Assembly: GCF_014202975.1 (NCBI RefSeq)
Contig: NZ_JACHHZ010000005.1
Span: 1 to 64,000, forward strand
Reading direction: 5' to 3'
Source of the DNA: Povalibacter uvarum
GTDB lineage: Bacteria > Pseudomonadota > Gammaproteobacteria > Steroidobacterales > Steroidobacteraceae
DNA: 64,000 nt
The position numbers and the translations under genes are program-made. Within the stretch, counting starts at the first letter, position 1, and every line of letters starts with the position of its first letter. Positions 7,681-37,324 of this stretch are shown here, one piece after another. The notes beneath the pieces are model-generated. The model saw only the letters and a program-made list of their open reading frames with translations. It did not search any database and was not told the origin of the DNA.

Positions 7681-7798
7681 GATTACTCCATCGTTCTTTG
7701 TCGCTGAGAAATGCATGTCACTTTACCGTGCGCATGCACCCGCGCCCCGCGGACGTGACGCTAGTATGTATGAGGGGTCGGGAATGTTCCCTGACCGT

Positions 7799-11821: not shown

Positions 11822-12736
11822 ATGCCACGAGAGTATTCCGGTCGCTCCGCGGACCGTGACGCATCGACGCCCACATCGACAGCGTGTGGGTGTGGCGCGA
11901 ACGCGCCGCGCACGCAGAGCGATTGCCTCGACAGAAGCGCCGGGTCGTCTGTGTCGCGCAACGGATCGTGGCGTGTGGCGGTGGCGATCCTGTCCATGTC
12001 GGGCATGGCCGGTTGCATGACGGCGAAGATCGAGGAAGTCCGCGATGCACCGACGCGCATCACGGCGAACGAGGCAGTCGTGCTGCTCGCGAAGCCGCAT
12101 CTCGAAGGCACCGGCACCGAAGACAAGTTTCTCGACTGCCTCGAACGCGAGCTCGTCGGCGAATCGTTCTCCGCCGATCACGCCAGCGCGAAGAAAAGCG
12201 GCAAGGACCGCGACCCGCGCAGCAACATCAAGGACAAACCTTTCCAGGTCTATGCTGACGATCAGTTCGTGGATGCTTTCTATCCGTGGCTCGAGCCGAG
12301 CACGGCGCCGGTGAACCCGCAGGGGTTCTCCACCTTCCTCTCGCGTCCAGGCGTTTCTGAACGGGTCAGCTCGCTGGGCGTTCGTTTCATCGTATGGGTG
12401 GACGGCGTGACGCAGAAAACCGACGGCGGTGGAAGCATCGCTTGTGCGGTCGGTCCGGGTGGCGCAGGCTGTCTCGGACTGGGTTGGTGGGAAAAGCAGT
12501 CCGACTACGAAGCCACGGTCTGGGATTTGCGTGACGGCGTGAGCGCCGGCACCGTGAGTACGGACGTGAAAGGTACGTCGGTCATGATCGGTGCCGTGGC
12601 GCCCATTCCCATCATCTCGCCGGTGCAGAGCACGGCATGTGACCGGCTGGCGAACCAGTTGCGGTCCTTCCTCGTGGGTGCCGACGATGAAGATCCGGTC
12701 AACGCGCCGCCCAAACAGACGAAGGCGGCGGAATAG
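11822..12736 (+). CDS. Putative lipoprotein, first gene of the vWA/proton-channel locus
   Basis: A 304-residue protein of no family I recognise. A hydrophobic segment ending MSGMAGC (Cys at about residue 65) is a lipobox, but the leader before it is unusually long from the ATG at 11822, which has GGAGAG at good spacing. A GTG at 11951 would give a normal signal peptide but has no clear ribosome site. The mature part holds two paired Cys-containing stretches and a Gly-rich GGGSIACAVGPGGAGCLG segment. It opens a run of eleven same-strand genes and probably sits in the outer membrane. Confidence 0.65.
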   Translation: MPREYSGRSADRDASTPTSTACGCGANAPRTQSDCLDRSAGSSVSRNGSWRVAVAILSMSGMAGCMTAKIEEVRDAPTRITANEAVVLLAKPHLEGTGTEDKFLDCLERELVGESFSADHASAKKSGKDRDPRSNIKDKPFQVYADDQFVDAFYPWLEPSTAPVNPQGFSTFLSRPGVSERVSSLGVRFIVWVDGVTQKTDGGGSIACAVGPGGAGCLGLGWWEKQSDYEATVWDLRDGVSAGTVSTDVKGTSVMIGAVAPIPIISPVQSTACDRLANQLRSFLVGADDEDPVNAPPKQTKAAE

Positions 12737-12965
12737 CGGCACCGACGGACAGATCGGCTCATATAAGAAAACAGGTTCAGGGGGTTGTGCGGCGATGCTG
12801 GGGACGTGAGCGACATTGGTGAAGTGAGATGGCAGGTCGATCGAGGCGGTGGGCGTCGCAATACTCAGCCCGCGTTCAGCTCAGCGGCAGCACGATAAAC
12901 GGCGCCGCTGCGACCGTTGCCAATGTGACCCGTCCTCCAACATCCGACCTGACCCGGAGAGTGCG

Positions 12966-15686
12966 ATGAAGAGAAGCCAGGTACTCGATCGGCTACTTAT
13001 CGCCGCCGCGCAGGTCACAACCGTAGGCACCATCTCCGCCTTCCTCATGGGCGGGTGCGCCGGTCAGCAGTCTTCCTCCAGCATGCCCTCATCGACGATG
13101 CCTTCGGGCGGTTCGTCGGGATCGAGCGGCGGTTCTTCCGGTTCTTCAGGCGGTTCCAGCGGCGGCGGCGGCAGCAGCTCCAGCATGCCGAGCGGCGGGT
13201 CATCGGGCGGCGGCTCGTCCGGCGGCGGCAGTCAGTCGATGCCCTCGGGCGGATCCTCCGGTGGTGGCGGCGGTGGCGGCAGCAGTTCCAGCATGCCCGG
13301 TGGCAGTTCGGGAGGCGGTGCCAGCGGCGGTGCTTCCATGCCGTCGATGCCTTCCATGCCCTCGATGCCGAGCGGCGGCAGCTCCGGCGGATCGAGTGGC
13401 GGCAGCCAGGGCGGCTCACAGGGATCGTCCGGTGGTTCACAGGGATCATCCGGCGGTTCACAGGGTGGCTCATCAGGTGCCGACGGCGGTTCATCCGGCT
13501 CCATGGGCGGCTCCACCGGTTCATCGGGCGGATCGTCTGGGTCGTCGGGGGGTTCGGCCGGCTCGATGGGTGGCGGTGCTTCGGGAGGTGCTTCCGGAGG
13601 CTCGGCCGGTTCGATGGGCGGTGGTTCATCCGGTGGTGCCTCGGGCTCCATGGGTGGCGCCGGCGGCCAGTCGGGCGGTGACGGCGGATCGATCGGCGGT
13701 GCGGGTGGACAGGCCGGGGGCGGATCGCAGGGCGGCGCTTCGGGGGCAGGCGGCGGCTCATCCGGCGGCGGCGGTCAGCCCACGCTCGGAATGCCTTCAG
13801 GCAGCAGTGGCGGCGGCCAGGCGGGTGGCTTCCCAACGCCGAACATGGATACAGGTGCCTCCGGCGGTGGCGGTCAAAGCGGTGGCGGCAGCCAGGGTCA
13901 GAGCGGCGCCGACGCAGCAGGCGGTGCCAGCGGCGGTGCGTCAGCCAACGAAAGTATTTTCCAGGGCTCGAGCGGAGCTTCCGGTGCGCAGAGCACCGCG
14001 AGCGGTGGCGCATCGGGCGGCAGCAGCGGTCAGTCGGGAAGTTCAGGCGGATCCGCGGGATCGTCAGGCGGCGCGGCAGGAAGTGCGGGCGGATCCGCGG
14101 GTGCATCTGGTGGCGCAGCGGGCGCAATGGGTGGCGCTTCCGGCCAGGCCGGCGGTAGCCAGGGCGCAGCCGGTGGCGCTTCAGGTCAGGCCGGCGGTAG
14201 CGGTGGAGCATCAGGAAGTGCTGGTGGTTCTGCCGGTGCTTCGGGTGGCGCCTCGGGTCAGGCCGGCGGTTCAGCGGGTGCCTCGGGCGGCGCGGCCGGC
14301 GCGACGGGGGGAGCTTCAGGGCAGGCCGGCGGCGCATCAGGAAGCGCGGGCGGTTCAGCAGGCGCTTCAGGTGGCGGCGCGGCAGGCACGATGGGTCAGG
14401 CTGGCGGCGGCGGTGCATCCGGCGGTGCTGGTGCATCGGGTGGAGCAGATGGCGCTGCCGCGGGCAGTGCCGGCGGTTCAGCGGGTGCGTCCGGTGGCGC
14501 CGCAGGTGCCATGGGTGGAGCCGCAGGCCAGGCGGGCGGCAGCGCTGGCGCGGCAGGTCAGGCTGGTGGTGCCGGCGGCGGAGCAGGTGACGCGTCCGCG
14601 CAGATGGGTGGTGGCGCGGCCGGCGGCGGTGCATCCGGAAGTGCCGGTGGCGGAGCGAACGGCGACGGATCCTCAGGTGCAGCCGGACAAGCCGGCGGCA
14701 GTGGAGGAGCCGGTGGAAGTGATGGCAATGGCGCGCAGGGTGCGGCCGGTGGCGCGGGCGAAGCGGGCTCAGCCGACGGCGCGAACGCGAATGGCCAGGG
14801 CGGCCAGAACGGCGGCGGCCAGAACGGTGCAAACGGCAGTGCCGGCGGCCAGGGCGGACAGAGCGGAGCCAGCGGCGGCGCTGATGGCCAGGGTGGCCAA
14901 AGTGGCGGTGATGGCCAGAGTGGTGGTGGTGGCCAGAGTGGTGGCGCATCCGGATCGACCGGCAATGCCGATGGCACGAGCGGCGGCGGATCGAACGTTT
15001 CAGTCTCGGTAGCGCTTCCGGCAATCGTGCCGGTATTTGCGCCGACCGGCGGCTCACCCGGCGGACAGAGCGGCGGCGGCGCCCCAGGTGGCGCGGGATC
15101 TCCCGACGGCGCAGGTTCGCGTGGTGGTGCAGGTGGCGGCGGTGGCGCCGGGCCCATGACGACGTCCGAGCGCATGGCGCACATCGACAAGCAGTTCGAT
15201 ATTTCCCTTGGCGTGTTCGACGGACGTATGCGCGACGAGCAGGCCGAGATTGCCGGTCAGCGCAGCGGCCGCGGCGGATCGGGTAACGGCTCAGGCGCCG
15301 GCGCGGGCGGCAGCAATGACTCAGGAGCTGCCGGCGGTGATGGCGGTGAGGGATCCGGTGACGGCAAGGGCGGCAGTGGACAAGGCAACAGCCAGGGCAA
15401 TGGCAAGGGACAAGGTCAGGGCCAAGGCCAGGGCCAGGGTAGCGGCGGTCAGGGGACCGCCGGGGATTCCTCCCAGGGCGGCGGCAGTCGCGGCGGCGGC
15501 GGCGGTGTAGGCGGTGGCGGCCCGAAGGGCGGCGGCGGTCCGAGCACGGTGCCGGCCGACATTCCCGACGGCAGCGACGATGATGTGGTGGCGCGCCAGC
15601 TGCGCGAGGCCGCGATGGCGGAGACCGATCCCGAGCTGCGCGAAAAGCTGTGGCAGGAATACCGGCTCTACAAGAAGGGAAGCTGA
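12966..15686 (+). CDS. Giant Gly/Ser/Ala-rich repetitive lipoprotein
   Basis: A 906-residue protein. The N terminus (helix then LMGGC, Cys about residue 30) is a lipoprotein signal. About 700 residues then consist of degenerate GGS, GGA, GAxGQAGG and GGQSGG units: a flexible, uncharged, likely extended chain. Near the C terminus an ordered island appears (MTTSERMAHIDKQFDISLGV), then more Gly, then a final charged helix (DDDVVARQLREAAMAETD onward). GGAG precedes the ATG at 12966. It may span or coat the envelope as a tether. The low-complexity coding also opens long false frames on both strands. Confidence 0.75.
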   Translation: MKRSQVLDRLLIAAAQVTTVGTISAFLMGGCAGQQSSSSMPSSTMPSGGSSGSSGGSSGSSGGSSGGGGSSSSMPSGGSSGGGSSGGGSQSMPSGGSSGGGGGGGSSSSMPGGSSGGGASGGASMPSMPSMPSMPSGGSSGGSSGGSQGGSQGSSGGSQGSSGGSQGGSSGADGGSSGSMGGSTGSSGGSSGSSGGSAGSMGGGASGGASGGSAGSMGGGSSGGASGSMGGAGGQSGGDGGSIGGAGGQAGGGSQGGASGAGGGSSGGGGQPTLGMPSGSSGGGQAGGFPTPNMDTGASGGGGQSGGGSQGQSGADAAGGASGGASANESIFQGSSGASGAQSTASGGASGGSSGQSGSSGGSAGSSGGAAGSAGGSAGASGGAAGAMGGASGQAGGSQGAAGGASGQAGGSGGASGSAGGSAGASGGASGQAGGSAGASGGAAGATGGASGQAGGASGSAGGSAGASGGGAAGTMGQAGGGGASGGAGASGGADGAAAGSAGGSAGASGGAAGAMGGAAGQAGGSAGAAGQAGGAGGGAGDASAQMGGGAAGGGASGSAGGGANGDGSSGAAGQAGGSGGAGGSDGNGAQGAAGGAGEAGSADGANANGQGGQNGGGQNGANGSAGGQGGQSGASGGADGQGGQSGGDGQSGGGGQSGGASGSTGNADGTSGGGSNVSVSVALPAIVPVFAPTGGSPGGQSGGGAPGGAGSPDGAGSRGGAGGGGGAGPMTTSERMAHIDKQFDISLGVFDGRMRDEQAEIAGQRSGRGGSGNGSGAGAGGSNDSGAAGGDGGEGSGDGKGGSGQGNSQGNGKGQGQGQGQGQGSGGQGTAGDSSQGGGSRGGGGGVGGGGPKGGGGPSTVPADIPDGSDDDVVARQLREAAMAETDPELREKLWQEYRLYKKGS

Positions 15687-15712
15687 TCGAAACCGGACAC
15701 GAGTTGACGACC

Positions 15713-16987
15713 ATGAACGGCTCCATGCGACAGGTTTCCTCGAAGCTCGCCTCCCCACTGATGGTCCTGGCGCTGCTGGCATCCAGTGGTTGCGTGACGC
15801 ATGAGACGCGCCCGCAGCCGCGGCTGAATGCGATCCAGGCGGCGGAAGAAATTCCCGAGGCCCAGCTGCTCGATGTCGGCGTACGCCTCTTCGACGAGAA
15901 CGTGCCCGAAGACGAAAAGAAACGGGAAAAGGAACGCATCTTCCCCGACGTGCGCAAAGCGGAAGCTCGCTACCTGGCGATGCAGGTGCGCAATACGCTC
16001 GAGGGCTCGGGTCAGTGGGGCCAGGTGCGCGTGATCCCGGTCGATGACGAAGCGCTCGACGTTCGCGTCTCGGCGAAGATCCTCGAATCGACGGGCATGA
16101 TGCTGCGTCTCGCCGTCACGGTGGACGATGCCACCGGCCGCGTGTGGTTCCAGAAGGAATACGAGCAGCTCGCCGATACCCGCTCCTACAAGGACACCAC
16201 CGGCAAGCCGCGCGACCCGTTCCAGAATCTCTACGCAACGCTGGCCAACGACATCCTCGCGCATCGCCAGACGCTGGTGGCGGCGGATCTCGAAACGATC
16301 CGCAACGTCTCGGAACTGCGTTTCGCCCGGGATCTGGCGCCCTATGCATTCGAGAGCTATCTGGGCACGGACAAGAAGAAGGGCACGTACCAGGTGCTGC
16401 GGCTGCCTTCTTCCGACGATCCGATGCTGGTCCGGATGGATCGCATCCGCGAGCGCGACTACGCGCTGCTCGATACGGTCAACGAACACTACGCCCTGTT
16501 CACGGACAACATGTCCGAGTCGTACACGAACTGGCGTCGTTACAGTCACGACGAAATCGAAGCGCATGACGAAGCACAGCGCTCGGCGACGACGCGCAAG
16601 CTGCTGGGTGCGGCCGCGATCATCGGCGGCCTCGTCATGGGCACGCAGTCGAATACTTACGTAGGTCAGGCGGCTGCCACAGCCGGCGTGTTCGGCGGTG
16701 CGTACGCGGTCAAGAGCGGTTTCGACAAGGGTGCGGAAGTGAAGATGCACTCCGACTCCCTGAAGCAGCTGGGCGAATCCTTCCAGGCCGAGATCCAGCC
16801 GATGGTCGTCGAAGTCGAAGGCCGTACGCTGCAATTGCGCGGCACCGCAGAAGAGCAGTACCAGGAGTGGCGGCGGCTGCTCAAGGAACTCTACGAGAAC
16901 GAGACAGGTCTTCCCGTTGTCACGGCGCCCGTCGCCGACGGGCAGGCTGCAGCCCCCACGGCGAATGCCGGCGGTGGCACACGATAG
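15713..16987 (+). CDS. Putative lipoprotein with glycine-zipper-like segment
   Basis: A 424-residue protein, function unknown. Signal peptide with lipobox LLASSGC (Cys about residue 26). The first 200 residues look like a mixed alpha/beta envelope domain (QGxWGQVRVIP, VDDATGRVWFQKEY). A long helical region follows, then a Gly/Ala-rich hydrophobic pair (LLGAAAIIGGLVMG, AAATAGVFGGAYAV) like a glycine zipper, and a charged helix. It starts 26 bp after the repetitive lipoprotein gene, so the two are probably co-translated partners on the outer membrane. No strong ribosome site marks the start. Confidence 0.7.
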   Translation: MNGSMRQVSSKLASPLMVLALLASSGCVTHETRPQPRLNAIQAAEEIPEAQLLDVGVRLFDENVPEDEKKREKERIFPDVRKAEARYLAMQVRNTLEGSGQWGQVRVIPVDDEALDVRVSAKILESTGMMLRLAVTVDDATGRVWFQKEYEQLADTRSYKDTTGKPRDPFQNLYATLANDILAHRQTLVAADLETIRNVSELRFARDLAPYAFESYLGTDKKKGTYQVLRLPSSDDPMLVRMDRIRERDYALLDTVNEHYALFTDNMSESYTNWRRYSHDEIEAHDEAQRSATTRKLLGAAAIIGGLVMGTQSNTYVGQAAATAGVFGGAYAVKSGFDKGAEVKMHSDSLKQLGESFQAEIQPMVVEVEGRTLQLRGTAEEQYQEWRRLLKELYENETGLPVVTAPVADGQAAAPTANAGGGTR

Positions 16988-17018
16988 TTTTCCGTCACTA
17001 CCTCTCTACAATTCATTC

Positions 17019-19376
17019 ATGCTGGAAAGCGGGCAGGAGCTCTCTGCAAGGTTCGTCTTGGTTCGCGCCCTCGGGTCAGGCGGCAGCGGGAGCGTCTGGC
17101 TTGCGCAGGACAAAGAGCTCGGACGCTTCGTCGCGGTCAAGGTGCTGGCCGATGAGTTGATGCAGGACGTGGCTGCGGTCACGGCGTTGCAGCGCGAATG
17201 CGACCGGCTGAAGGCGCTGGAGCATCCCAACATCATCCAGGTCGACGGAGTGCATCGCTCCGCCCGGCACACCTGGATCGCAATGGAGTACGTATCGGGC
17301 GGCGACCTCACTTCCTGGCGCGGCCGCGGCGCGACTGAGGTCCTGAGAGTCACGTTGCCGATCGCCGAGGCTCTCGCTCACGCCCATCGTGCCGGCGTAG
17401 TGCACCGGGACGTCAAGCCGGCCAACGTCCTGCTGACGTCGGATGGCGTGCCCAAGCTGACCGATTTCGGCATCGCGCTGGCACTGAACGAACTGCCTGC
17501 CGCCCGCGCGGGCCGCGGTTCCCTGTTCACGATGAGTCCGCAGCAACTCGACGGGGCCGCCGCCGCTGCGAGCGACGATGTTTACGGATTCGGTGCGCTG
17601 CTCTACGAACTGCTCTCCGGCTACCCCCCGCTGTATCCGAACGCAACGCCGGAAAGCATTCGCAACGAACGTCCTCGCTCGCTGACGGAAGCTGCATCGG
17701 TGCCTGCTCCCCTCGCACAGCTCATCGATCGCTGCCTGGAAAAATCTCCCGCGGATCGGCCGCCGGGCATGGACACGATCGTGCGCGAACTGACCGCGGC
17801 GATGGCTGGCATTCCCGCGGTAAACATTATTCAGACCCCAGCGGCGGTTTCGCGTCCTGCCGTGGCGCCGCCATCGATCCGCCCGCCGGTGGCGCAGGGC
17901 GAGCCGTTGCGCAGCGAATGGAAGCGGCCGGCAGTCACTGCGCGCAGCGACGACGAATTGCGGCGACAGGGTTTCCGTCGCGGCCTGGGAGTCGCCGTGG
18001 CGATTCTCGCTGTCATCGGGATCGGGTTCGTGTTCTTCGCGCTGCCTCGCTGGTTCCCGGAAGCGCCGAAGGCGAAGCCTGCGCAAACCGCAAAGGAAGT
18101 CGAGGCGCCGAAGACCGAGCCGCGCAAGGAAACAGACTTCGCCGCGCTGGCACGGGCGAAACAGGAAGCCGAGGAACAACGCACCGCCATCGAAGGACGC
18201 TTCGAGAAGCTGCGCGCCCGGGCTGTCGATCTGTGGGGCGGCGCGGAGTTCAAGCAGGCAAGCGACGAACTCGCAGCCGGCGATCGCGACTTCGCGGCTC
18301 GCGAATACGTGACGGCACGAGACCACTTCAAGGCTATCGCACCGCTGATCGACGTGTTGGAGAAGCGCGCGACGGAAGTACTCGCGCATCAGCTGGCGGC
18401 AGGCAATAAGGCAATCGCCGAGGGCCGGTCGGCCGACGCGAAGACAGCTTTCGAGCTCGCGCTGAAACTGGACGCCGGAAACGCGGTCGCAACGCGCGGT
18501 CTGAAGCGATCGGCAACGCTGGATGAAGTGCTCGCGCTCGTCGCAACGGGCGAACGGCTGGAGAAGGAAGGCAACATCACCGCTGCCGCGGAAACCTTCC
18601 GCAAGGCGCTGGCGCTCGATGCCGATACTGCTCGTGCCTCGGACGGCCTTGCGCGCGTCGATGCACGAGTGTCGAGCGACGCGTTCGCTAGTTCGATGGC
18701 GCGCGGATTCGATGCTCTGACGGCTCGCCGATACGGCGAAGCACGATCCGCTTTCGATGCTGCTGCCCGCGTCCGGCCGGGATCGCCCGAGGTCGCTCAG
18801 GCCCTCAGGCAGATCGAACAGGAGGAGCGCACTCGCAGCATCTCCGCCAAACTCGAAGTCGCGAGCGCATTCGAGTCGAAAGAACGCTGGGCGGAGGCGT
18901 TGAAAGAGTATCGCGATGTCGTGCAGCTCGATTCGACTGTTGCGGCTGCCAGCGAGGGGGTCTCCCGCACAGCGCCGCGAGCGCAGTTGAACGAAGAGCT
19001 CGACCTCTATCTCACTCAGCCCGAGCGGCTCTTCAGTGCGCCGGTGCGCAGCGCCGCACGCCAGACGCTCGGACAAGCGAAGCAAGTCGCGCCGGCAGGT
19101 CCGGTGCTTCAAAAGCAGATCGCGACGCTGAGCGACTGGCTCGCCCGCGCCGATGTTCCTGTGCAAGTCGCCCTCAGGTCAGACAACCTTACGCAGATCA
19201 CGATCCATCGCATCGGTGCACTCGGCAGTTTCGAGCAGCGCTCGGTCGAACTGCCTCCCGGCAACTACACCGTCGTCGGGACGCGGCCGGGATATCGCGA
19301 TGTGCGGCGTGAAATCCATGTCGTGCCCGGCACTGCGTTGCAGCCCGTCGTCGTTCGCTGCGAGGAAAAGATTTGA
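17019..19376 (+). CDS. Transmembrane Ser/Thr protein kinase with periplasmic repeats and PEGA-like end
   Basis: 785 residues. Cytoplasmic PknB-type kinase domain at about 10-265: GSGGSGSV loop, K41, HRDVKPANV (D131), DFG (149-151), so catalytically complete. A Pro-rich linker leads to a membrane helix at about 322-342. Outside are coiled/TPR-like repeats and a C-terminal PEGA-like beta domain (ELPPGNYTVVGTRPGYRDV). It is translationally coupled to the next gene (overlap TTGA). FHA domains, which bind phosphothreonine, are encoded in the next gene and three genes beyond it, so this kinase probably regulates the assembly of the locus. Confidence 0.88.
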   Translation: MLESGQELSARFVLVRALGSGGSGSVWLAQDKELGRFVAVKVLADELMQDVAAVTALQRECDRLKALEHPNIIQVDGVHRSARHTWIAMEYVSGGDLTSWRGRGATEVLRVTLPIAEALAHAHRAGVVHRDVKPANVLLTSDGVPKLTDFGIALALNELPAARAGRGSLFTMSPQQLDGAAAAASDDVYGFGALLYELLSGYPPLYPNATPESIRNERPRSLTEAASVPAPLAQLIDRCLEKSPADRPPGMDTIVRELTAAMAGIPAVNIIQTPAAVSRPAVAPPSIRPPVAQGEPLRSEWKRPAVTARSDDELRRQGFRRGLGVAVAILAVIGIGFVFFALPRWFPEAPKAKPAQTAKEVEAPKTEPRKETDFAALARAKQEAEEQRTAIEGRFEKLRARAVDLWGGAEFKQASDELAAGDRDFAAREYVTARDHFKAIAPLIDVLEKRATEVLAHQLAAGNKAIAEGRSADAKTAFELALKLDAGNAVATRGLKRSATLDEVLALVATGERLEKEGNITAAAETFRKALALDADTARASDGLARVDARVSSDAFASSMARGFDALTARRYGEARSAFDAAARVRPGSPEVAQALRQIEQEERTRSISAKLEVASAFESKERWAEALKEYRDVVQLDSTVAAASEGVSRTAPRAQLNEELDLYLTQPERLFSAPVRSAARQTLGQAKQVAPAGPVLQKQIATLSDWLARADVPVQVALRSDNLTQITIHRIGALGSFEQRSVELPPGNYTVVGTRPGYRDVRREIHVVPGTALQPVVVRCEEKI

Positions 19377-21805
19377 ACGCATCGGCACTCCAGGAAGAAA
19401 CCCTGATCGTCCGCGAACCGCAGGGCGAGCGGCGCTTTGGCGCGCCCGATTTTCCTCTCGGCTTCGGCGGCGCGGGCAGCGTCGTGGTGTTGAGCGGCCG
19501 GCCCGAAGGCGTCGAAGCGTGGCTCGGCGTGCACGAAGATCAGTTGTTCGTGCAGCCTGCCGAAGGCAAGGATGTGCTCCACAACGGGTTGCGCATCACG
19601 CAGTCCGCCTGGCTGAAGGCGGGCGACGTCGTGAACCTCGGCAACGCGCGCCTGCGGGTGGTGGAAGATCGCGGACAGCGAACGATCGAAGTCGATGACG
19701 GCAGCGCGGGCAACATCACTGCACCGCCGATCATTCAGCACGATGCGCGGTTGCGAGGCGACAGCGACGCGGAAGCAGAGCCGATCGCGGCAGTGCGCTT
19801 CCGCGCGAGCGAAGGTGCGGCGCGCAAGCGCACGGTGACTTTCAATCCCACTCGTGTCTTGTTGACGGTCATTGCACTCATCGCCGGTGGCGTGCTGTGG
19901 TTCGTGCTCACCGCGACTTCGATCGGTGTGTCGACAGCGCCGGTGAAGGCCCGGATCGATATCGCGGGAGGATTGCCGGCGGTGCCGGTGGGCGGGCGCT
20001 TCCTGCTGCGGCCCGGCGAGTACACGATTCGCGCAAGCTCTCCCGGATACGCGCCGGCTGAGATCAAAGTCAAAGTCACCGAAGCCGCCAACCAGCAGTT
20101 CGCGCTCTCGCTGGCGAAGCTGCCCGGCATGCTCAGCATTCAGGTCCCGGTCGAAGCGAAGCTGTCCATCGACGGCCAGGAAGTCGGCTCCGCGCCCGGC
20201 GAGTTCGAGTTGCAGCCGGGCACCCACACCGTCGCGATCAACGCGCCGCGATATCAGCCTTTCAGCGGCACCGTCGAGGTCGAAGGGCTCGGCAAGAAGC
20301 AGGTCTTCACACCGGCACTCGTGGCCGCCTGGGCGAACGTCACGATCACGTCCGAACCGGCCGGCGCGCAAGTCATCGTGGCAGGTGAACAGCGCGGCGT
20401 GACACCACTGACCACCGAAGTGATGGCGGGCAACCAGCCGCTCGAACTCAGGCTCGAAGGCTTCAAGGCCTGGACGACCGACATCCAGGTGAAGGCGAGC
20501 GAAGCGATGACGGTCGGTCCAGTGCGGCTCGGATTGCCCGACGGTCGACTGGCACTGCGGTCCGAGCCTTCAGGTGCGAGCGTGACGATCAGCGGCGTGT
20601 ATCGCGGCGTGACACCGCTCGATGTCGAGGTCCGGCCTGATATGGAGCAGTCGATCGTGTTCTCGCGCCCCGGCTACGAGCCGGCGACGCGACAGGCGAC
20701 GCTGAAGTCGGGCGAAAGGCAGACGATGAGCGTTGCGCTCACAGGCGTGTACGGTGAAGTCGCCGTTCGCGCGCAGCCCGCCGATGCCCAGGTATTCGTC
20801 GACGGCAGACCCGCCGGCAATGTGAACCAGACGCTGCGGCTCGTCGCGACGACCCACGAGATCGAGATCCGCAAGGCCGGGTTCGTCGATTTCAAGACGA
20901 CGGTTACGCCCCGGCCCGGTTTGCCGCAGGTCGTCGAGACGAAGCTCCTGACGGCGGAACAGACGCGCATCGCCGCGACACCCGCTGTCGTGACGACGAA
21001 GGTGTCGCAGCAGCTGAAGCTCATGCCGCTCGGTCGATTCACCATGGGCAGTCCGCGCCGCGAGCCGGGCCGTCGTGCGAACGAGGCGCAGCGCGACGTC
21101 GAGTTCAAGCGCGGGTTCTATGTGGGCGTGCGTGAAGTGACGAACGCCGAGTTCAAGCGCTTCAAGTCCGATCACCGCTCCGGAATCGTGCCGCCGAACA
21201 CGCTGGAGCTCGACAATCAGCCCGTCGTGAACGTGCGCTGGGAGCAGGCGGCCGCGTACTGCAACTGGCTGTCGGAGCAGGAAGGGCTGCAGCCTGCTTA
21301 CGTGAAGGACGGCGAGTCGCTCGTGCCGGCCAATCCGATGACCAATGGCTACCGATTGCCGACCGATGCGGAGTGGGAATGGGTTGCCCGCTACTCATCC
21401 GATGGCAAGGCGCGTCGTTATCCGTGGGGCGATGCGTTGCCGGTGGCGCCTGCGTCGGGCAACTACGCCGACTACACGGCGCGCGTCGTGTTGCAGGACA
21501 TCGTGCCGGGTTACGACGATGGTTACGCCGTCACCGCGCCCGTCGGGAAATTCCCGCCGAACGTGCTCGGACTCTATGACATCGGCGGCAACGTCGCGGA
21601 GTGGGCGCACGACTACTACACTGTCAGCACCGACTCGACCCAGGTCGCGGTCGATACGATGGGCCCGGCGCAGGGCAAGAATCACGTGATCCGCGGATCG
21701 AGCTGGAAGCAGTCGAGCGTGACCGACCTGCGTCTGTCCGCGCGCGACTTCGGCGACGTGCAGCGAAACGACGTCGGCTTCCGGGTCGCGCGTTACGTGC
21801 AATGA
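19373..21805 (+). CDS. FHA-like / PEGA repeat / sulfatase-modifying-factor fusion membrane protein
   Basis: 810 residues. An FHA-like beta domain at about 10-105 faces the cytoplasm, a membrane helix at about 161-180 follows, then four or five PEGA repeats (motifs PGEYTIRASSPGYAP, PGTHTVAINAPRYQP, EPAGAQVIVAGEQRGVTPL, EPSGASVTISGVYRGVTPL), then an FGE-sulfatase/SUMF domain from about 545 (LMPLGRFTMGSPRREPG, GYRLPTDAEWEWVARY, GLYDIGGNVAEWAHDYY, GFRVARY). Such domains either make formylglycine or act as binding folds; no sulfatase is nearby. The TTG start at 19373 has AGGAAAAG ahead and overlaps the kinase stop. Confidence 0.87.
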   Translation: MNASALQEETLIVREPQGERRFGAPDFPLGFGGAGSVVVLSGRPEGVEAWLGVHEDQLFVQPAEGKDVLHNGLRITQSAWLKAGDVVNLGNARLRVVEDRGQRTIEVDDGSAGNITAPPIIQHDARLRGDSDAEAEPIAAVRFRASEGAARKRTVTFNPTRVLLTVIALIAGGVLWFVLTATSIGVSTAPVKARIDIAGGLPAVPVGGRFLLRPGEYTIRASSPGYAPAEIKVKVTEAANQQFALSLAKLPGMLSIQVPVEAKLSIDGQEVGSAPGEFELQPGTHTVAINAPRYQPFSGTVEVEGLGKKQVFTPALVAAWANVTITSEPAGAQVIVAGEQRGVTPLTTEVMAGNQPLELRLEGFKAWTTDIQVKASEAMTVGPVRLGLPDGRLALRSEPSGASVTISGVYRGVTPLDVEVRPDMEQSIVFSRPGYEPATRQATLKSGERQTMSVALTGVYGEVAVRAQPADAQVFVDGRPAGNVNQTLRLVATTHEIEIRKAGFVDFKTTVTPRPGLPQVVETKLLTAEQTRIAATPAVVTTKVSQQLKLMPLGRFTMGSPRREPGRRANEAQRDVEFKRGFYVGVREVTNAEFKRFKSDHRSGIVPPNTLELDNQPVVNVRWEQAAAYCNWLSEQEGLQPAYVKDGESLVPANPMTNGYRLPTDAEWEWVARYSSDGKARRYPWGDALPVAPASGNYADYTARVVLQDIVPGYDDGYAVTAPVGKFPPNVLGLYDIGGNVAEWAHDYYTVSTDSTQVAVDTMGPAQGKNHVIRGSSWKQSSVTDLRLSARDFGDVQRNDVGFRVARYVQ

Positions 21806-21818
21806 GGACGGGTGACTT

Positions 21819-22190
21819 ATGAGAGCAGCCTCCTACCTGATCATGCTCACCGTCGCTTCGGCGACCGGTCACTTCCTGTTCAACGCCGACACCGAATCGG
21901 GATCGGGTGGCGGGCAGGGCGGCGGTACGCGCATGGCGGCCGCTGAAGAATCACCGCCCGCGGAGAAGCCGGTGACACCATCGCAGAGCCCCGCGGCCGA
22001 AGAAGAGGCAGCGGCAAAGAAGGCAGCGCCAAGCACGGAAGAGGAAGCCGCCGCCGCGGAGAAGGACGGCAAGACCCCCGCCGACAAGGCGGCGGACAAG
22101 GGCAGCGCCGCGAAGGGCTCGCCGCAACGTTTCATTCCATCCGAGCAGGTCCGCGCCGATTTCGACGTGTCCTTCCCGGTGGACATCTGA
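21819..22190 (+). CDS. Small secreted or anchored Ala/Glu/Lys-rich protein
   Basis: 123 residues: an N-terminal hydrophobic helix (about 3-23) that could be a signal or anchor, a Gly patch, about 65 residues of Ala, Glu, Lys and Pro that look disordered, and an ordered last segment, RFIPSEQVRADFDVSFPVDI. The contrast between the variable linker and the precise tail suggests the tail is a docking peptide for another part of the machine. It lies 13 bp after the FHA/PEGA gene. No family recognised. Confidence 0.68.
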   Translation: MRAASYLIMLTVASATGHFLFNADTESGSGGGQGGGTRMAAAEESPPAEKPVTPSQSPAAEEEAAAKKAAPSTEEEAAAAEKDGKTPADKAADKGSAAKGSPQRFIPSEQVRADFDVSFPVDI

Positions 22191-22224
22191 TCACGCTCCG
22201 CCACAACGGAACATCGAGAGATTC

Positions 22225-23058
22225 ATGGTCACAGCCACTGCCAATCCGCCGAGCGCACGCCGCCGCTTCCAGTATCCGAGCGAGTTCGCCTGGACGCTGT
22301 TCGCGCTCGTCTTCACGCTCATGGCCGTTCACGCCACTTACGTTGCATGGATTCGTCCCCAGGGCGAGGCGATCACGCAGATCGAGCTCGAGCGCATGAA
22401 GGAAGACAAGACCTACATTCCGAAGCGTTCGTTCTTCCTGGTCATCAAGGACTTCGAGCAGGAGCTCGAGATCATGCACTTCGTCTGGGCCATGCTGATC
22501 ATCGGCTACAAGGCCGTGCTGGTACGACGCGAGCGCAAGTTCCTGGAGCGCGAGCTGATCCAGGTGCCCGAAGGCATCAAGGTGCTGCCGGAAGACGCGA
22601 AGGACTATGCGCGCCAGCTCGAATCGCTGCCGCAAGAGGACAAGCAGCGTCTCGTCGTTCGCGCCCTGCAGCGCACGCTCGATCGATTCGCCGCGACCCG
22701 CAGCATTCGCGACTCTGCCGAGACATCGAGCGCGGTCTGCGATTCGGAGGCCGATCGCCTCGACTCCAGTCTCGCGATGATCCGGTACATCGCCTGGGCC
22801 ATCCCGGCCATCGGCTTCATCGGCACCGTGCGCCACATCGGCGACGCGCTGCTGCAGGCCAACCAGGCCGTCAGCGGCGACATCACGTCGGTGACGTCGA
22901 GCCTCGGTATCGCATTCAACGCCACGTTCGTCGCCCTGTCGCTCACCATCGTGCTCATGTTCTTCCTGCACCAGCTCCAGCAGTCGCAGGAAGATCTCGT
23001 CCACGACACGGATCAATGGGTGGATCAGAGACTGATCCGTCACATGCAGGTGAGATGA
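22225..23058 (+). CDS. MotA/TolQ/ExbB-family proton channel subunit
   Basis: 277 residues with about four membrane helices: FAWTLFALVFTLMAVHATYV (about 20-40), IMHFVWAMLIIGYKAVLV, and the paired C-terminal helices IAWAIPAIGFIGTVRHIGDA and SLGIAFNATFVALSLTIVLM, which match the MotA/ExbB core. Such proteins surround the single helix of a partner (MotB, TolR, ExbD) and pass protons past its Asp. Here the partners are probably the two vWA proteins downstream, which have an Asp in their only helix. Start ATG at 22225 with GAGAG upstream. Confidence 0.87.
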   Translation: MVTATANPPSARRRFQYPSEFAWTLFALVFTLMAVHATYVAWIRPQGEAITQIELERMKEDKTYIPKRSFFLVIKDFEQELEIMHFVWAMLIIGYKAVLVRRERKFLERELIQVPEGIKVLPEDAKDYARQLESLPQEDKQRLVVRALQRTLDRFAATRSIRDSAETSSAVCDSEADRLDSSLAMIRYIAWAIPAIGFIGTVRHIGDALLQANQAVSGDITSVTSSLGIAFNATFVALSLTIVLMFFLHQLQQSQEDLVHDTDQWVDQRLIRHMQVR

Positions 23059-23071
23059 GAGCGAGTCGACC

Positions 23072-24481
23072 ATGCTCTGCCTCGAACTCATCGATGCCGG
23101 CCTCATTCTCACGCAGCAACGCGGCGAGGGAGTGACCGTTCTCTCCGAAGCGCCCGGCGTGGCCGTGCTCGAAGACGCGGCGACTGTGACGGGTGAACCG
23201 GCGATGCAACGCATACGCGTCAAGCCGCTGCAGGCGCAGACCAACTACTGGCGTGCACTCAGCACCGAGTCACTGACGCGTCCGTCTCGGCTCGTTCGGA
23301 CGACAGCGGATGTTGCGTTCGCTCAAGCGAGCGAGCTGCTCGAGCCGCACAAGTCCGATAGCGAAGGGGTGCTGCTCGCGATTCCCGCCGGCTACAGCCG
23401 CGAGCAGCTCGGCCTGCTGCTCGGTGTCATCAATGAGACCGGTGTGAGCGTCGCGGGAGTCGTAGACGCGGCGCTGGCAGCGTGCAGTCTGGAGTCGGCA
23501 CCTGCGCGTGCGCTGCACCTCGATCTCGAACTGCATCAGGCGCTGCTGACGGTGCTCGACTACGCGGGCACGAAGGGCGGCGGCGATCACGGCGGTCTGA
23601 AGCGCAACCGCTACGAAATCGCGCCACGACGCGGAATGATGGCGCTGCATCAGACGTGGATGCAGATGATCGCGGAAAACTTCGTGCGCAACACCCGCTT
23701 CGATCCTTTGCACGATGCGTCGAGCGAACAGCGATTGCTGAACATGCTGCCGACGTGGCTTGCGGAGCTGGCGGGCAATGAAAAGCTGACACTGTCGATG
23801 CAATTCGGCGATCGGCCGCTCGAGGTGGAAGTGGAGCGGTCTCAGTTCATCGCCGCCGCGGAGCCGCACTACGCCGAACTGCTCAGACTCGTCCAGGACG
23901 CGCGAGTCGCGGGATTGCCGATCGAGCTGCGGGTATCGCAGCGCGTCGCCTCGTTGCCGGGCCTGACGGATCGACTCTCGACATTGCGCGATTGCGTGCT
24001 GAAGGTTCTGCCGCGCGGCGCTGCGGCATTGGGTGCCCTGATGCATCGCGCGACGATCGAGCGCACGCCAGATGCGCTGGCGCTCGTCTATCAGCTGCCG
24101 CTGGAACGGGCCGAGGGCAACACTGCGAGCACGGCTCACGAAGCGACTCCGCCGCAGCTGCGCCCGACGCATGTGCTCTACCAGGGGCGTGCATGGAGAA
24201 TTTCAGACCGGCCGCTGGCAGTCGGCTGGTCGCCGGCGGCGGATCGATCCCTCGTGTTGCCGAGTGCCGCGCCGGGGCTTTCCCGGTCGCATTGCACGCT
24301 GGTTCGCCGCAACGGCTCCGTGGTCGTAGAGGATCGCAGTACTTACGGTTCGTTCGTCAACGAAGAACGAGTGGTGGGCGAGACGGTACTCACGGTCGGC
24401 GACCGGCTGCGGCTCGGTTCGCCGGGAGTGACGCTCGACATGATTCAACTGGTGCAGGACGATGGCGCGCCGCAAGACTGA
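23072..24481 (+). CDS. FHA-domain protein with a possible actin/HSP70-like N-terminal domain
   Basis: 469 residues, no signal peptide, so cytoplasmic. The C-terminal 100 residues form a canonical FHA domain: LSRSHCTL (phosphopeptide-binding SRSH), then VVVEDRSTYGSFVNEERV and VGDRLRLGS. The first 370 residues read like an actin/HSP70-type fold (VAGVVDAALAACSLE, LHLDLELHQALLTVLDY), but I cannot place every nucleotide-binding motif, so that part is tentative. It should read phosphothreonines made by the locus kinase and couple them to the membrane complex. It overlaps the next gene by 20 bp. Confidence 0.78.
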   Translation: MLCLELIDAGLILTQQRGEGVTVLSEAPGVAVLEDAATVTGEPAMQRIRVKPLQAQTNYWRALSTESLTRPSRLVRTTADVAFAQASELLEPHKSDSEGVLLAIPAGYSREQLGLLLGVINETGVSVAGVVDAALAACSLESAPARALHLDLELHQALLTVLDYAGTKGGGDHGGLKRNRYEIAPRRGMMALHQTWMQMIAENFVRNTRFDPLHDASSEQRLLNMLPTWLAELAGNEKLTLSMQFGDRPLEVEVERSQFIAAAEPHYAELLRLVQDARVAGLPIELRVSQRVASLPGLTDRLSTLRDCVLKVLPRGAAALGALMHRATIERTPDALALVYQLPLERAEGNTASTAHEATPPQLRPTHVLYQGRAWRISDRPLAVGWSPAADRSLVLPSAAPGLSRSHCTLVRRNGSVVVEDRSTYGSFVNEERVVGETVLTVGDRLRLGSPGVTLDMIQLVQDDGAPQD

Positions 24482-25556
24482 AGTCTTCAGCATGTCGTTC
24501 CTCGATTGCATCACCTGTGCATTCGGGTCGGTGGTGCTCGTCTACGTGCTCATCAACGCCAAGGGCGGATTGCGCGCGACGACGCAGACCCGGGCAATGC
24601 AGGCCGAAGTGCAGCAACTCGAGGAGCAGGTGCTCGAGGGCTACCAGAACCTCGTCGTGCTGCGTAACTCGATGGTCCAGACACAAAGCGAGGAGGTCCG
24701 GACCGAGGGCATGGGCGAACGCGTGCTCGCCGAGACCGAACAGCTCAAGGTCCAGCTCGCGGATTCCAACAAAGAAGCGCTCTCGCGCCGTGAAGCGATC
24801 GAGCGCCTGAAGGCGGATCTGAAGTCACTCGAAGAAGGCACGCGCCGGCTGGAAGGCGCATCCGAACGTTCGGACACGACCGGCACCCGCGTGCGCGGCT
24901 TCACCGGCGATGGTGATCGGCAGTACCTCACGGGCCTGCGCGTCGGCGGCGAGCGAATCCTCATCATGGTGGATGCGTCGGCGAGCATGCTCGACGAGAC
25001 CGTCGTCAACGTGCTGCGCATGCGGAACATGTCCGATACCCGCAAGATGATGTCGGATAAGTGGCGGCGCACACTGTCGACGATGGACTGGCTCGCGGCC
25101 CAGCTCCCCCTCGAAAGCGAGTTCCAGATCTACGCCTTCAACACGCAGCCGTGGCCGTTGAAAGAGGGCACCGAAGGAAAGTGGCTGAAGGTCAATGACG
25201 CCACGGCGCTCAACGAGTCGCTGACCAACCTGCGCAAGGCGATCCCGAAGGACGGCACGAGCCTCGAGAATGCCTTCCAGGCGATTGCCGCCCTGAACCC
25301 GAAGCCGGACAACGTCATCCTGATCACTGACGGCCTGCCGACCCAGGGGACGAGCGCCCCGCTGATCAAGAAGACCGTCGACGGCGACGACCGTCTCAAG
25401 TTCTTCGAACGCGCCATCGCGAAGTATCCGAAGAACGTCCCGCTCAACGTGATTCTCATGCCGATGGAAGGCGATCCTTCCGCCCCGAGCGCCTTCTGGC
25501 TCGCCTCACGCCGCACCGGCGGCTCGTTCATCAGCCCGTCGAAGGATTGGCCATGA
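24462..25556 (+). CDS. Membrane-anchored vWA protein 1 with MotB/ExbD-like helix
   Basis: 364 residues. Short basic N terminus, one membrane helix (about 11-32) beginning SFLDCITCAFGSVVL with Asp15 and a CxxC inside it, a coiled coil (about 40-135), then a von Willebrand A domain from about 160 with MIDAS motif DASAS (171-175), the TSLENA threonine/serine region and ITDGLP. The layout (charged short N terminus, Asp-bearing helix, outside coiled coil) copies MotB/TolR/ExbD, with a vWA head replacing the peptidoglycan-binding domain. Probably driven by the adjacent MotA-like channel. Confidence 0.85.
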   Translation: MARRKTEVFSMSFLDCITCAFGSVVLVYVLINAKGGLRATTQTRAMQAEVQQLEEQVLEGYQNLVVLRNSMVQTQSEEVRTEGMGERVLAETEQLKVQLADSNKEALSRREAIERLKADLKSLEEGTRRLEGASERSDTTGTRVRGFTGDGDRQYLTGLRVGGERILIMVDASASMLDETVVNVLRMRNMSDTRKMMSDKWRRTLSTMDWLAAQLPLESEFQIYAFNTQPWPLKEGTEGKWLKVNDATALNESLTNLRKAIPKDGTSLENAFQAIAALNPKPDNVILITDGLPTQGTSAPLIKKTVDGDDRLKFFERAIAKYPKNVPLNVILMPMEGDPSAPSAFWLASRRTGGSFISPSKDWP

Positions 25557-25565
25557 TAGGAAGAA

Positions 25566-25700
25566 GTGGATGGCGGATAGCGGATAGCGGATGGGTAGAG
25601 CCGCAGAGGCCACCCTCCGCGGTTCGCTCGCTTTCGTCATCTGGTCTGCGCGCAAAGAGCATCCTTTCCGGCTATCCGCCATCCGCTGTCCGCTATCTAC
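25566..25700. repeat. Heptad-arm inverted element H2 inside the operon
   Basis: Left arm 25566-25597 repeats GCGGATA/GCGGATG; right arm 25670-25700 is its inverted copy (TATCCGC/CATCCGC). The core of about 70 bases has no ORF. It separates the two vWA genes and could form a long RNA hairpin that affects downstream expression. The arms start a few bases from the stop and start codons on each side. Confidence 0.75.
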
Positions 25701-25706
25701 TTCCTC

Positions 25707-26795
25707 ATGCCTCGCCGTAACGAACGTCGCGAAACGGAGATCTTCAGCATCTCCTTCCTGGACTGCATCACGTGCGGTCTCGGTTCGGTCGTGCTGCTGC
25801 TCGTGCTGAGCGACATGAAATCGCCGGAGGCTGAGCGGTCGCAGGAGGATCTGCAGGCGCAGATGGTCAAGCTCCAGGACGAGCTGGTCGATATCGCGGG
25901 GCAGGCGGAAATCCTGAATCGTGATCTCACGGCGCGACAGCAGCAGCTCTCCGAGGAGAAAGCGAAGATCGCGCGCTTGCGCGGCGACCTGACCGACATC
26001 CGCGGCCAGTTTGCGGCTTCGAAGAAGGAAGCCGACGTTGCGAACGAGATCGAAGGCCGGCTGGTATCGGCGCAGCAGTCCTTGAGCGAAGAGATGAAGC
26101 GCGTGCTCGGCCGCGGATTCCATCGCAAGAAGGACGATGCCATCGGCGGTATTCCGGTCGACAGCGAATACATCATCTTCGTCGTGGATACTTCCGGCAG
26201 CATGGTGAACTACGCCTGGCCGATGCTCATCCAGAAGGTGGAAGAGACGCTCAACCTGTATCCGCGCGTGAAGGGCTTCCAGGTGATGGACGACGAGGGC
26301 GGATACATGTTCTCCGGCTACCGGGGGAAGTGGATTCCCGACACGCCCGCGCAACGCAAGATCGTGATCGACCGCATCCGCAACTGGAATGCGTTCTCGA
26401 ACTCGAGTCCGATCGAAGGCATCGTCGAGGCGATCCGCACGTACTACTCGAAGGACAAGAAAATCAGCATCTACGTGTTCGGCGACGAATTCACCGGACC
26501 GTCGATCGACGCGGTGGTCAAGAGCGTAGATGTGCTGAATCGTGCGGACGACACCGGCGAGCGCAGAGTCCGTATCCATGCGATCGGTTTTCCGGTGCGG
26601 CCCGACGCGCCCCAGTACACGAGCATTCGCTTTGCCACGCTGATGCGAATCCTGTGCGCCAAGAACGGCGGTACTTTCGTGGGACTGGATGATCCGAAGC
26701 GCGGCGGACCCGCGTTCCGGATTGGCGGCACATCGCAAGAGGACGCGCCGGGCCAGGTCGCATTGCAGGCAGATCCCGCGTCGAATCCTTCCTGA
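25707..26795 (+). CDS. Membrane-anchored vWA protein 2 with MotB/ExbD-like helix
   Basis: 362 residues, paralogous in layout to the preceding vWA protein. Basic N terminus, membrane helix (about 15-36) starting SFLDCITCGLGSVVLL with Asp19 and CxxC, a coiled coil (about 42-130), then a vWA domain with MIDAS motif DTSGS (161-165) and a conserved-looking YVFGDEF strand. The N-terminal motif is nearly identical to that of protein 1, while the vWA domains differ greatly. Two such arms could form a heterodimer in one channel, as MotB forms a dimer. The start is the ATG at 25707, just after the H2 element. Confidence 0.85.
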   Translation: MPRRNERRETEIFSISFLDCITCGLGSVVLLLVLSDMKSPEAERSQEDLQAQMVKLQDELVDIAGQAEILNRDLTARQQQLSEEKAKIARLRGDLTDIRGQFAASKKEADVANEIEGRLVSAQQSLSEEMKRVLGRGFHRKKDDAIGGIPVDSEYIIFVVDTSGSMVNYAWPMLIQKVEETLNLYPRVKGFQVMDDEGGYMFSGYRGKWIPDTPAQRKIVIDRIRNWNAFSNSSPIEGIVEAIRTYYSKDKKISIYVFGDEFTGPSIDAVVKSVDVLNRADDTGERRVRIHAIGFPVRPDAPQYTSIRFATLMRILCAKNGGTFVGLDDPKRGGPAFRIGGTSQEDAPGQVALQADPASNPS

Positions 26796-26823
26796 CCTTC
26801 TTTTCCGACAGGCCGAGGTCGTT

Positions 26824-27687
26824 TTGAAACCGATAACAACAACAGGCGCGCCACGCATCGCCGGATGGCTTCGGCCGATGGCGCTCGCGGCAGCCACGGC
26901 CTCGATGCTCGTCGTTGCCGGCTGCGGCCCGGTCAAGCTCGTGGCGACGACGAACATTCCGACGCCGCTCGTCGTGAAGATTCCCGTGTCCGTCGCCGTG
27001 TTCGTGCCGAAAGAGTTTTCCGGCTTCGTGCATGACGAAGAGCGCTCGGGAACGGACTGGCACGTCGAGCTCGGCAGGGCACAGACGGACGGATTGATGC
27101 GTCTGCTGAACGCGATGTTCCAGCACGTCGTTGTCGTGGACAGCCTGAATGTGGGACCTCAGGGAGACGTGCGGGCCATCCTCGAGCCCAGCGTCGAAGA
27201 GTATGCGTTCGTCACTCCGCGCGATGCCGGTTCGCCGTTCTTCGCGGTCAGCATCAAGTACCGCATCAACGTCTACACGCCCGATGGGAAGCTCGCCGAC
27301 TCCTGGGGCTTCACAGGCTACGGCACGGCGCCTTCACAGGGAATTTCGAGCGACGCACCGCTCACGCAGGCGACGGCACTGGCGCTGCGTGATGCGGGCG
27401 CGAAGCTCGCCGTCGAATTCAGGGAACAGGCGATCGTGCGCGGCTTGTTGCCCGAAGGCGCTGTTCCCGATACGCCGGTCCTGCCGCCGACGGGTTTGCC
27501 GGCTCCGGCGCCGAGCCAGCAGCCGCCCGCATCGGCGCCCGCCGAAGCACCGCCGGCACAGAGCGAGCCGGCGGCGACGGAACCGCCTGCTGGAGGCGAG
27601 AGTGCGCCGGAGGCGAAGCCCTCCGAGCCGGTCGAGAAAGAAGAAGAGAAGAAGCCAGAGCCGGCGAGGGTCGAGTCGCTGGTTTAG
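26824..27687 (+). CDS. Putative lipoprotein with Pro/Ala/Glu-rich tail, last gene of the locus
   Basis: 287 residues. From a TTG at 26824 (GAGG ahead) the protein has a signal peptide with lipobox LVVAGC (Cys about residue 33). The folded part (about 40-195) has alternating strands (VAVFVPKEFSGFVHDE, FFAVSIKYRINVYTPDG) reminiscent of auxiliary outer-membrane lipoproteins that inhibit or guide trans-envelope complexes, though no family is certain. The last 90 residues are a Pro/Ala/Glu-rich tail. It closes the eleven-gene run, 28 bp after the second vWA gene. An ATG at 26878 is an alternative start but shortens the signal. Confidence 0.7.
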   Translation: MKPITTTGAPRIAGWLRPMALAAATASMLVVAGCGPVKLVATTNIPTPLVVKIPVSVAVFVPKEFSGFVHDEERSGTDWHVELGRAQTDGLMRLLNAMFQHVVVVDSLNVGPQGDVRAILEPSVEEYAFVTPRDAGSPFFAVSIKYRINVYTPDGKLADSWGFTGYGTAPSQGISSDAPLTQATALALRDAGAKLAVEFREQAIVRGLLPEGAVPDTPVLPPTGLPAPAPSQQPPASAPAEAPPAQSEPAATEPPAGGESAPEAKPSEPVEKEEEKKPEPARVESLV

Positions 27688-29232: not shown

Positions 29233-29340
29233 GACGATCGACGCCGTCTCGCTCGAGTGGACTGATGTCGAGGCTACAGGCAAGGCCTGCCGGGCGGAAG
29301 TGCGGTCCGCCTCATTTCATCCGGATGCTGAAGACGGAGC

Positions 29341-37262: not shown

Positions 37263-37324
37263 GATCCGTATATACGCCGTTACCCATCGCAAGAGAAGCG
37301 AGGGTTTCCGGGCTTCGGAACGCA

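Follow-up and report, generated by a model that had tools for sequence, protein, structure and literature searches.

The closest described counterpart of the locus analysed here is a motor proposed in 2025 (Mol Biol Evol, PMC12204202, Fig. 4c,d), in which TolQ is combined with a pair of "transpore-helix vWA" proteins. According to the section and figure legend devoted to this motor, which was inferred with AF3, a TolQ-like gene lies beside a heterologous vWA pair, the transpore helix carries an Asp that binds the proton, a Thr ring is present, and tolR/exbD is missing. The same section reports the motor in Proteobacteria and Verrucomicrobia, as an energised machine without a known job.

Other envelope systems resemble the locus in part. 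Tol-Pal is alike in its proton channel subunit and its lipoproteins, in a weakly TolB-domain-1-like fold and in a TonB_C-type neighbour. The T9SS/gliding system GldKLMN also has an FGE-fold protein adjoining a proton motor, the T6SS threonine phosphorylation pathway has kinase, FHA, SUMF-like and lipoprotein parts, and Zorya has a MotA-like channel with a partner ending in the periplasm.

The window, that is, the whole stretch of DNA analysed, is 64,000 nt of Povalibacter uvarum (contig NZ_JACHHZ010000005.1), and the block of interest lies at 11822-27687 on the + strand. A first-pass annotation had described eleven same-strand genes in this block, and all eleven ORFs were present on the + strand: lpA, GS (the Gly/Ser tether lipoprotein, hereafter tether), lpB, STK, FPS, sml, Mot, FHA, vA1 (vWA1), vA2 (vWA2) and lpC. 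Several of the listed ORFs start too early. With the likelier starts of lpA (~11951), the tether (~12966), lpB (~15713), STK (~17019) and lpC (~26878), the gene overlaps mostly vanish. The features are as follows.

11951 to 12736, + strand: lpA, lipoprotein with no recognised fold (lipobox MAGC; likely GTG start ~11951 in an ORF open from 11822)
12966 to 15686, + strand: tether (GS), lipoprotein with a long low-complexity linker of Gly/Ser (lipobox MGGC; ORF open from 12849)
15549 to 15683, + strand: C-terminal tail peptide of the tether, near-invariant (PDGSDDDVVARQLREAAMAETDPELREKLWQEYRLYKKGS), from residue frequencies in 61 loci
15713 to 16987, + strand: lpB, core lipoprotein with a TolB-domain-1-like alpha/beta domain and a long helical hairpin (AlphaFold2, Foldseek, SSGC)
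17019 to 19376, + strand: STK, cytoplasmic Ser/Thr kinase with one TM and a periplasmic TPR and PEGA-like region (Pfam; HRD/DFG intact here)
19373 to 21805, + strand: FPS, FGE/SUMF domain and five PEGA repeats, with one TM (~157-175) and an N terminus that is weakly FHA-like (Pfam)
21819 to 22190, + strand: sml, small secreted protein with a disordered linker and an invariant C terminus ending FPxDI ([FYW]PxDI count)
22225 to 23058, + strand: Mot, MotA/TolQ-like channel subunit with four predicted TM helices (Pfam; TolQ alignment)
23072 to 24481, + strand: Hsp70/DnaK-like nucleotide-binding-domain fold plus an FHA domain that is degenerate in part; an optional cytoplasmic component (AlphaFold2, DnaK profile, Foldseek)
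24462 to 25556, + strand: vA1, one TM carrying the invariant F13-L14-D15, a coiled coil and, in the periplasm, a vWA with MIDAS DxSxS (Pfam, conservation)
25707 to 26795, + strand: vA2, one TM carrying the invariant L18-D19, a coiled coil and, in the periplasm, a vWA with MIDAS DTSGS (conservation)
26878 to 27687, + strand: lpC, lipoprotein with no recognised fold (ORF opens at 26689; lipobox VAGC; 60 homologues)
27808 to 29283, - strand: TPR protein with a TonB_C-like C-terminal end (TPR_12 1.6e-16, TonB_C 5.4e-5)

The Pfam searches of the window proteins gave Pkinase (2e-43) and TPRs in STK, MotA_ExbB in Mot (1.8e-12), an FHA domain (2.2e-11) and weak vWA matches (6e-5); in FPS they gave five PEGA repeats and an FGE-sulfatase domain (3e-54, 3e-45). 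Pfam and conservation thus support the kinase, the MotA/TolQ-like channel and the two vWA proteins of the first-pass annotation. Its small secreted protein has a signal sequence, and its giant Gly/Ser-rich lipoprotein has both the lipobox and the low-complexity linker. Its count of three lipoproteins was too low: lpA, the tether and lpC match the lipobox and lpB reads SSGC, which makes four. The FHA-like/PEGA/SUMF fusion was borne out for the PEGA and SUMF parts, but the FHA-like part is a weak match (Yop-YscD_cpl, E=0.03). In addition, the TPR protein with the TonB_C-like end, which lies beyond the block as first delimited, is probably a twelfth component. Its homologues adjoin the locus in many relatives and stand directly upstream of the tether in Halieaceae.

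The comparison with the 2025 proposal depends on the three motor proteins. The hydropathy scan of Mot gave three hydrophobic stretches, and TM3 was placed through the alignment with TolQ, which, followed by MotA, is the nearest solved relative of Mot (both with weak E-values). T201 and T234 of Mot are invariant in 86 sequences and are aligned with T145 and T178 of TolQ, the Thr residues that line the proton path of TolQ. In both vA1 and vA2, a basic stretch is followed by one helix opening S-F-L-D, in which the FLD motif shows little or no variation. The frequency of its Asp was 1.00 for D15 of vA1 (122 sequences) and also for D19 of vA2 (117 sequences), and this Asp has the position that is occupied by the Asp of P-[LM]-[VIL]-D in ExbD/TolR proteins from the same order. 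vA1 and vA2 share ~34% identity over the N-terminal part, that is, they are a heterologous pair. The MIDAS (metal-site) residues are invariant in both vWA domains, and the PDB profile searches with the two proteins gave mainly coiled-coil matches. When the genome was searched for the ExbD family, ten matches were obtained, none of them in the window. Taking together the invariant Asp, the kept metal sites and the lack of ExbD in the window, we think that vA1 and vA2 most likely replace the ExbD/TolR/MotB dimer. We also infer a 5:2 stoichiometry and a vA1:vA2 heterodimer.

Four traits given in the section of PMC12204202 on this motor were found here, namely, the vWA linkage, the heterologous pair, the Asp with the Thr ring, and the lack of tolR/exbD. 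As judged from the sequences, the motor of the locus is of the type proposed there, and the motor core is therefore not new. The first-pass annotation had found no match to a described machine; this does not hold for the motor core and does hold for the remaining components. That is, the tether and its tail, sml with its FPxDI end, lpA, lpB and lpC, FPS, the periplasmic part of STK and the Hsp70-FHA protein do not appear in the section and figure legend of PMC12204202 that treat the motor. Our literature searches on the domain combinations, which covered few subscription journals, gave no match other than this paper. The locus thus offers a candidate parts list for one TolQ-vWA motor, with a gene order kept across several phyla.

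The first-pass annotation had proposed to look for recurrence of the set as a unit across genomes. We counted the 68 loci having at least 9.4 kb upstream of vA2. The six core genes lpB, STK, FPS, Mot, vA1 and vA2 were co-located in the same order and on the same strand in 63 of them; the tether was found in 57 and sml in 61. Mot was on the same strand and upstream of vA2 in 65 of the 68, and vA1 and vA2 were paired in 67. Gene order was also kept in the neighbourhoods of 20 relatives; the near ones have the full set, and most of the distant ones have the six core genes. The co-location of the gene block is far above chance, and the conserved block with its Asp/Thr signature agrees with the earlier description of a recurring proton-motor-like trans-envelope gene set.

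The block is present in every genome of the sample of its own genus, with stable neighbours. Among 60 related genomes, 46 gave a match to the vA2 query, in most cases with vA1 adjoining; class-wide, matches were obtained in 21 of 276 genomes, and a few of these matches were weak. Elsewhere the distribution is patchy: 348 genomes from the phylum gave about 10 strong matches, and a Desulfobacterota sample of 148 gave 3. The 80 named loci belong to Gammaproteobacteria, Desulfobacterota, Acidobacteriota, Kiritimatiellota and Myxococcota (where the locus is split in two). The gammaproteobacterial carriers are Halieaceae, Microbulbifer, Bowmanella, Lysobacterales, Chromatiales and Woeseiaceae. In one Verrucomicrobia locus, vA2 and the tether tail were found, and the other profiles gave no match there. 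Compared with the range given in the motor section of PMC12204202, the locus thus extends also to Desulfobacterota, Acidobacteriota, Kiritimatiellota and Myxococcota. In the vA2 tree, which is a quick tree of moderate support, the Desulfobacterota rows and one Kiritimatiellota row were nested among Gammaproteobacteria, and this placement suggests that the whole block may have been transferred between phyla. Several cultured carriers (Microbulbifer, Bowmanella, Kineobactrum, Seongchinamella) are open to genetics.

Some variants of the locus were also observed. In the Myxococcales locus L114 the operon is split, with Mot-FHA-vA1-vA2 on one strand and lpB-STK-FPS on the other. Another genome (G003) has a full copy and, on contig C4, an extra vA1-vA2 pair without the remaining operon (L042). 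In much of the family, lpC is placed as it is here, after vA2. In Halieaceae and relatives, a gene of an M48 metallopeptidase directly follows lpC-lpA (L119, 12287-13726; also L120, L124, L135, L149 and L153).

Two of the components outside the motor core end in conserved tails. Homologues of the tether occupy the same position upstream of lpB. They are mostly 237-741 aa long (the ORF in the window has 945 aa), and across 61 loci their linker is variable in both composition and length. In the same 61 loci, the last ~40 residues read PDGxDDD(I/V)VARQLREAAMxExDPELREKLWEEYRKYKxG, in which D, D, Q, R, E, A, A, E, L, W, E and Y have a frequency of 1.00. When the tail alone was used as the query against 12 genomes of several phyla, 11 of them had a single match; this match was always inside the vA2 locus, and outside the window its E value was between 1e-10 and 1e-18. 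The tether appears to be secreted without lipidation in several Desulfobacterota and related members. The build of sml is the same: the signal sequence is followed by a variable linker and a C terminus that reads [FYW]PxDI in 68 of 69 hits. Neither the tether tail nor sml belongs to a Pfam or NCBIfam family, and neither was found in the literature searched, in which few subscription journals were covered. With two peptide signatures that occur once per locus, the missing partner of the vWA arms becomes directly testable.

The other lipoproteins and FPS were analysed by profile and structure searches. In lpA, C65 and many other residues are invariant in 49 homologues, and it has no Pfam or PDB match; the PDB profile searches with lpA, lpB and lpC likewise gave none. 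In the AlphaFold2 model of lpB (pLDDT 78.8), an N-terminal alpha/beta domain is combined with a hairpin that contains a helix of 75 residues. The best Foldseek match of the alpha/beta domain was domain 1 of TolB, which was weak (E 2e-3, TM 0.20), the TM value being low because the match covers only part of lpB. We assume that lpA, the tether, lpB and lpC are located in the outer membrane. With regard to FPS, the active-site segment of the FGE domain has no Cys in 74 rows, and the catalytic Cys pair is thus lacking. This rules out FPS as an active formylglycine-generating enzyme.

We consider it on balance probable that the locus encodes a proton-driven 5:2 motor, the vA1/vA2 arms of which grip tails on flexible linkers and convey force or release signals to outer-membrane lipoproteins. 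Mot would form a pentamer, and the vA1-vA2 heterodimer would be its axle, each protein putting one helix into the pore with its proton-carrying Asp (D15 or D19) facing T201 and T234, the Thr ring of Mot. At its tips, the axle would carry in the periplasm two vWA domains that differ from each other and keep their metal sites, and these would replace a peptidoglycan-binding domain. These motor-driven arms may hold tails, chiefly the ~40-aa tail of the outer-membrane tether and also the FPxDI end of sml. By a cycle of grip and release, force or release signals would be handed to the lipoproteins of the outer membrane; TolA acts likewise with TolB/Pal. lpB, with its TolB-domain-1-like part, may form the scaffold together with the periplasmic PEGA, FGE and TPR domains, and the kinase, FHA and Hsp70-like parts would be cytoplasmic regulators gained in some lineages. 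The idea of tail gripping comes from the presence of two tethered acidic tails beside two metal-site vWA domains. It is our guess that the arms grip the tails of the tether and sml at MIDAS, and both the tail-vWA binding and the force-transfer cycle are hypothetical.

We also raise, tentatively, the possibility that the locus encodes a trans-envelope machine of a class not described so far: a proton motor would drive two different vWA "hands", and these would catch dedicated peptide tails on long disordered tethers, one of them anchored in the outer membrane. If so, its working stroke would reach the outer membrane by a low-complexity string, not by a rigid rod of the TolA/TonB type.

Other readings of the locus have to be weighed against the tail-gripping motor. 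First, the block may be a paralogue of or substitute for Tol-Pal that secures the attachment of the outer membrane at division. In such a system, Mot/vA would correspond to TolQ/TolR, lpB to TolB and the tether to Pal, and the transducer would be the TPR-TonB_C protein. The TolB-D1-like domain of lpB, the TonB_C end of the TPR neighbour and the position of TolQ as the best solved relative of Mot are consistent with this. However, the vWA pair stands in TolR's place, the Pfam searches gave no TolR/ExbD, beta-propeller or OmpA/Pal domain, so that neither a TolB propeller nor a Pal/OmpA domain is found in the block, and no TolB_N was found in the window. Moreover, TolB is encoded on another contig (C1) of the same genome, with an ExbD/TolR-family gene ~1 kb away. 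This indicates that the block is additional and is not the host's Tol-Pal. A replacement of Tol-Pal is thereby ruled out, and we regard the reading as a whole as unlikely.

Second, the motor could move factors tethered to the outer membrane along the envelope, as a machine of surface motility or export like Agl-Glt or T9SS. FPS has a GldK-like FGE fold (NCBIfam GldK 3e-35), a MotA-like motor is present, and there are TPR and TonB_C proteins as in Glt (PMC3169522). The match of FPS to the GldK equivalog model, however, is far under the cut-off (122 bits against 350), and the Pfam and NCBIfam searches of the block found no GldM or GldN, SprA, ExbD of the AglQ/S type or Glt barrel. We therefore think that this reading is quite doubtful.

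Third, the locus may be a phospho-signalling device resembling the T6SS threonine phosphorylation pathway PpkA-Fha-TagR (PpkA, Fha, TagQRST), in which the kinase senses the envelope via TPR/PEGA and FHA readers switch the assembly of the channel. The first-pass annotation had likewise suggested phosphothreonine-FHA gating of assembly. The parts list in the window is similar, with an intact kinase (HRD, DFG), an FHA domain, a SUMF-like protein and lipoproteins. The FHA domain was also detected in 16 of the 18 members having both the kinase and the FHA protein, as against 6 of the 33 without the kinase. This raw count is suggestive of co-inheritance, but the state of the kinase changes at least 6 times on the tree, there are at most 4 independent pairs, and the association is without significance when relatedness is taken into account; the tree thus gives it no support.

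Conservation of the cytoplasmic parts also argues against the phospho-signalling device. About two thirds of the STK homologues have no kinase domain, the conserved part being that with the TM, TPR and PEGA, and the cytoplasmic FHA-like part is missing in about half of the FPS homologues. The FHA protein itself is absent from one group of loci, and its FHA domain is undetectable in most Halieaceae-type members. The canonical GR...S..H...NG motif is not kept, since the Arg of GR was found in 4 of 64 rows. In the window, Trp stands for this Arg and YG for NG, and Ser and His are kept. The FHA domain named by the first-pass annotation is real in the window, but an Hsp70/DnaK-like nucleotide-binding domain at the N terminus of the same protein had been missed (AlphaFold2 pLDDT 91.5; DnaK profile 1.6e-7; Foldseek Hsp70, E 5e-18).

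From the missing kinase and the eroded FHA sites, we conclude that phosphothreonine gating, that is, canonical pThr reading, is not the core mechanism. A link to T6SS is ruled out by missing co-occurrence: TssB was found in 9 of 60 relatives compared with 46 of 60 for vA2, and the TssB of the present genome is on another contig, not with the block. Unlike the T6SS pathway, the block has a motor and its kinase is optional. Taken together, we judge the phospho-signalling device to be very unlikely. Since the kinase, the FHA protein and the cytoplasmic part of FPS are optional, cytoplasmic regulation appears to be an add-on, and a conserved periplasmic machine can be set apart from it and from its Hsp70 part. 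In the window, where both kinase and FHA are present, phospho-regulation is possible as such an add-on.

Finally, a Zorya-related anti-phage defence system is scarcely credible and, like other defence, was ruled out, because Mot matches ZorA only weakly (0.0014), the matches of the kinase to the PD-T4-6 and Mad6 models are those expected of any kinase, PADLOC gave no match to ZorB (OmpA/peptidoglycan-binding), ZorC, ZorD or ZorE in seven block proteins, and the block is constant within the genus sample and linked to envelope lipoproteins, with no nucleases. With no ZorB/C/D, no TolR/ExbD and no Pal domain, the earlier separation of the block from Zorya, Tol-Pal, Mot and Exb stands.

Several other genes of the window were observed. 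At 124-2754 on the - strand, another Ser/Thr kinase is encoded, which has a long array of TPRs (Pkinase 3e-47, TPR_12 3e-56). A PhyR-type response regulator with PhyR sigma2/sigma-like and receiver parts lies at 6904-7716 (- strand), and a HisKA_2/HWE histidine kinase with a Cache domain lies at 8702-10471 (+ strand). PhyR and an HWE kinase are parts of the general stress response usually credited to Alphaproteobacteria, and here they are found in a gammaproteobacterium. At 35873-38404, a Memo-like protein (PF01875, 2.4e-51) is encoded beside proteins that are AMMECR1-like and radical SAM-like by sequence; Memo, AMMECR1 and radical SAM form a known trio.
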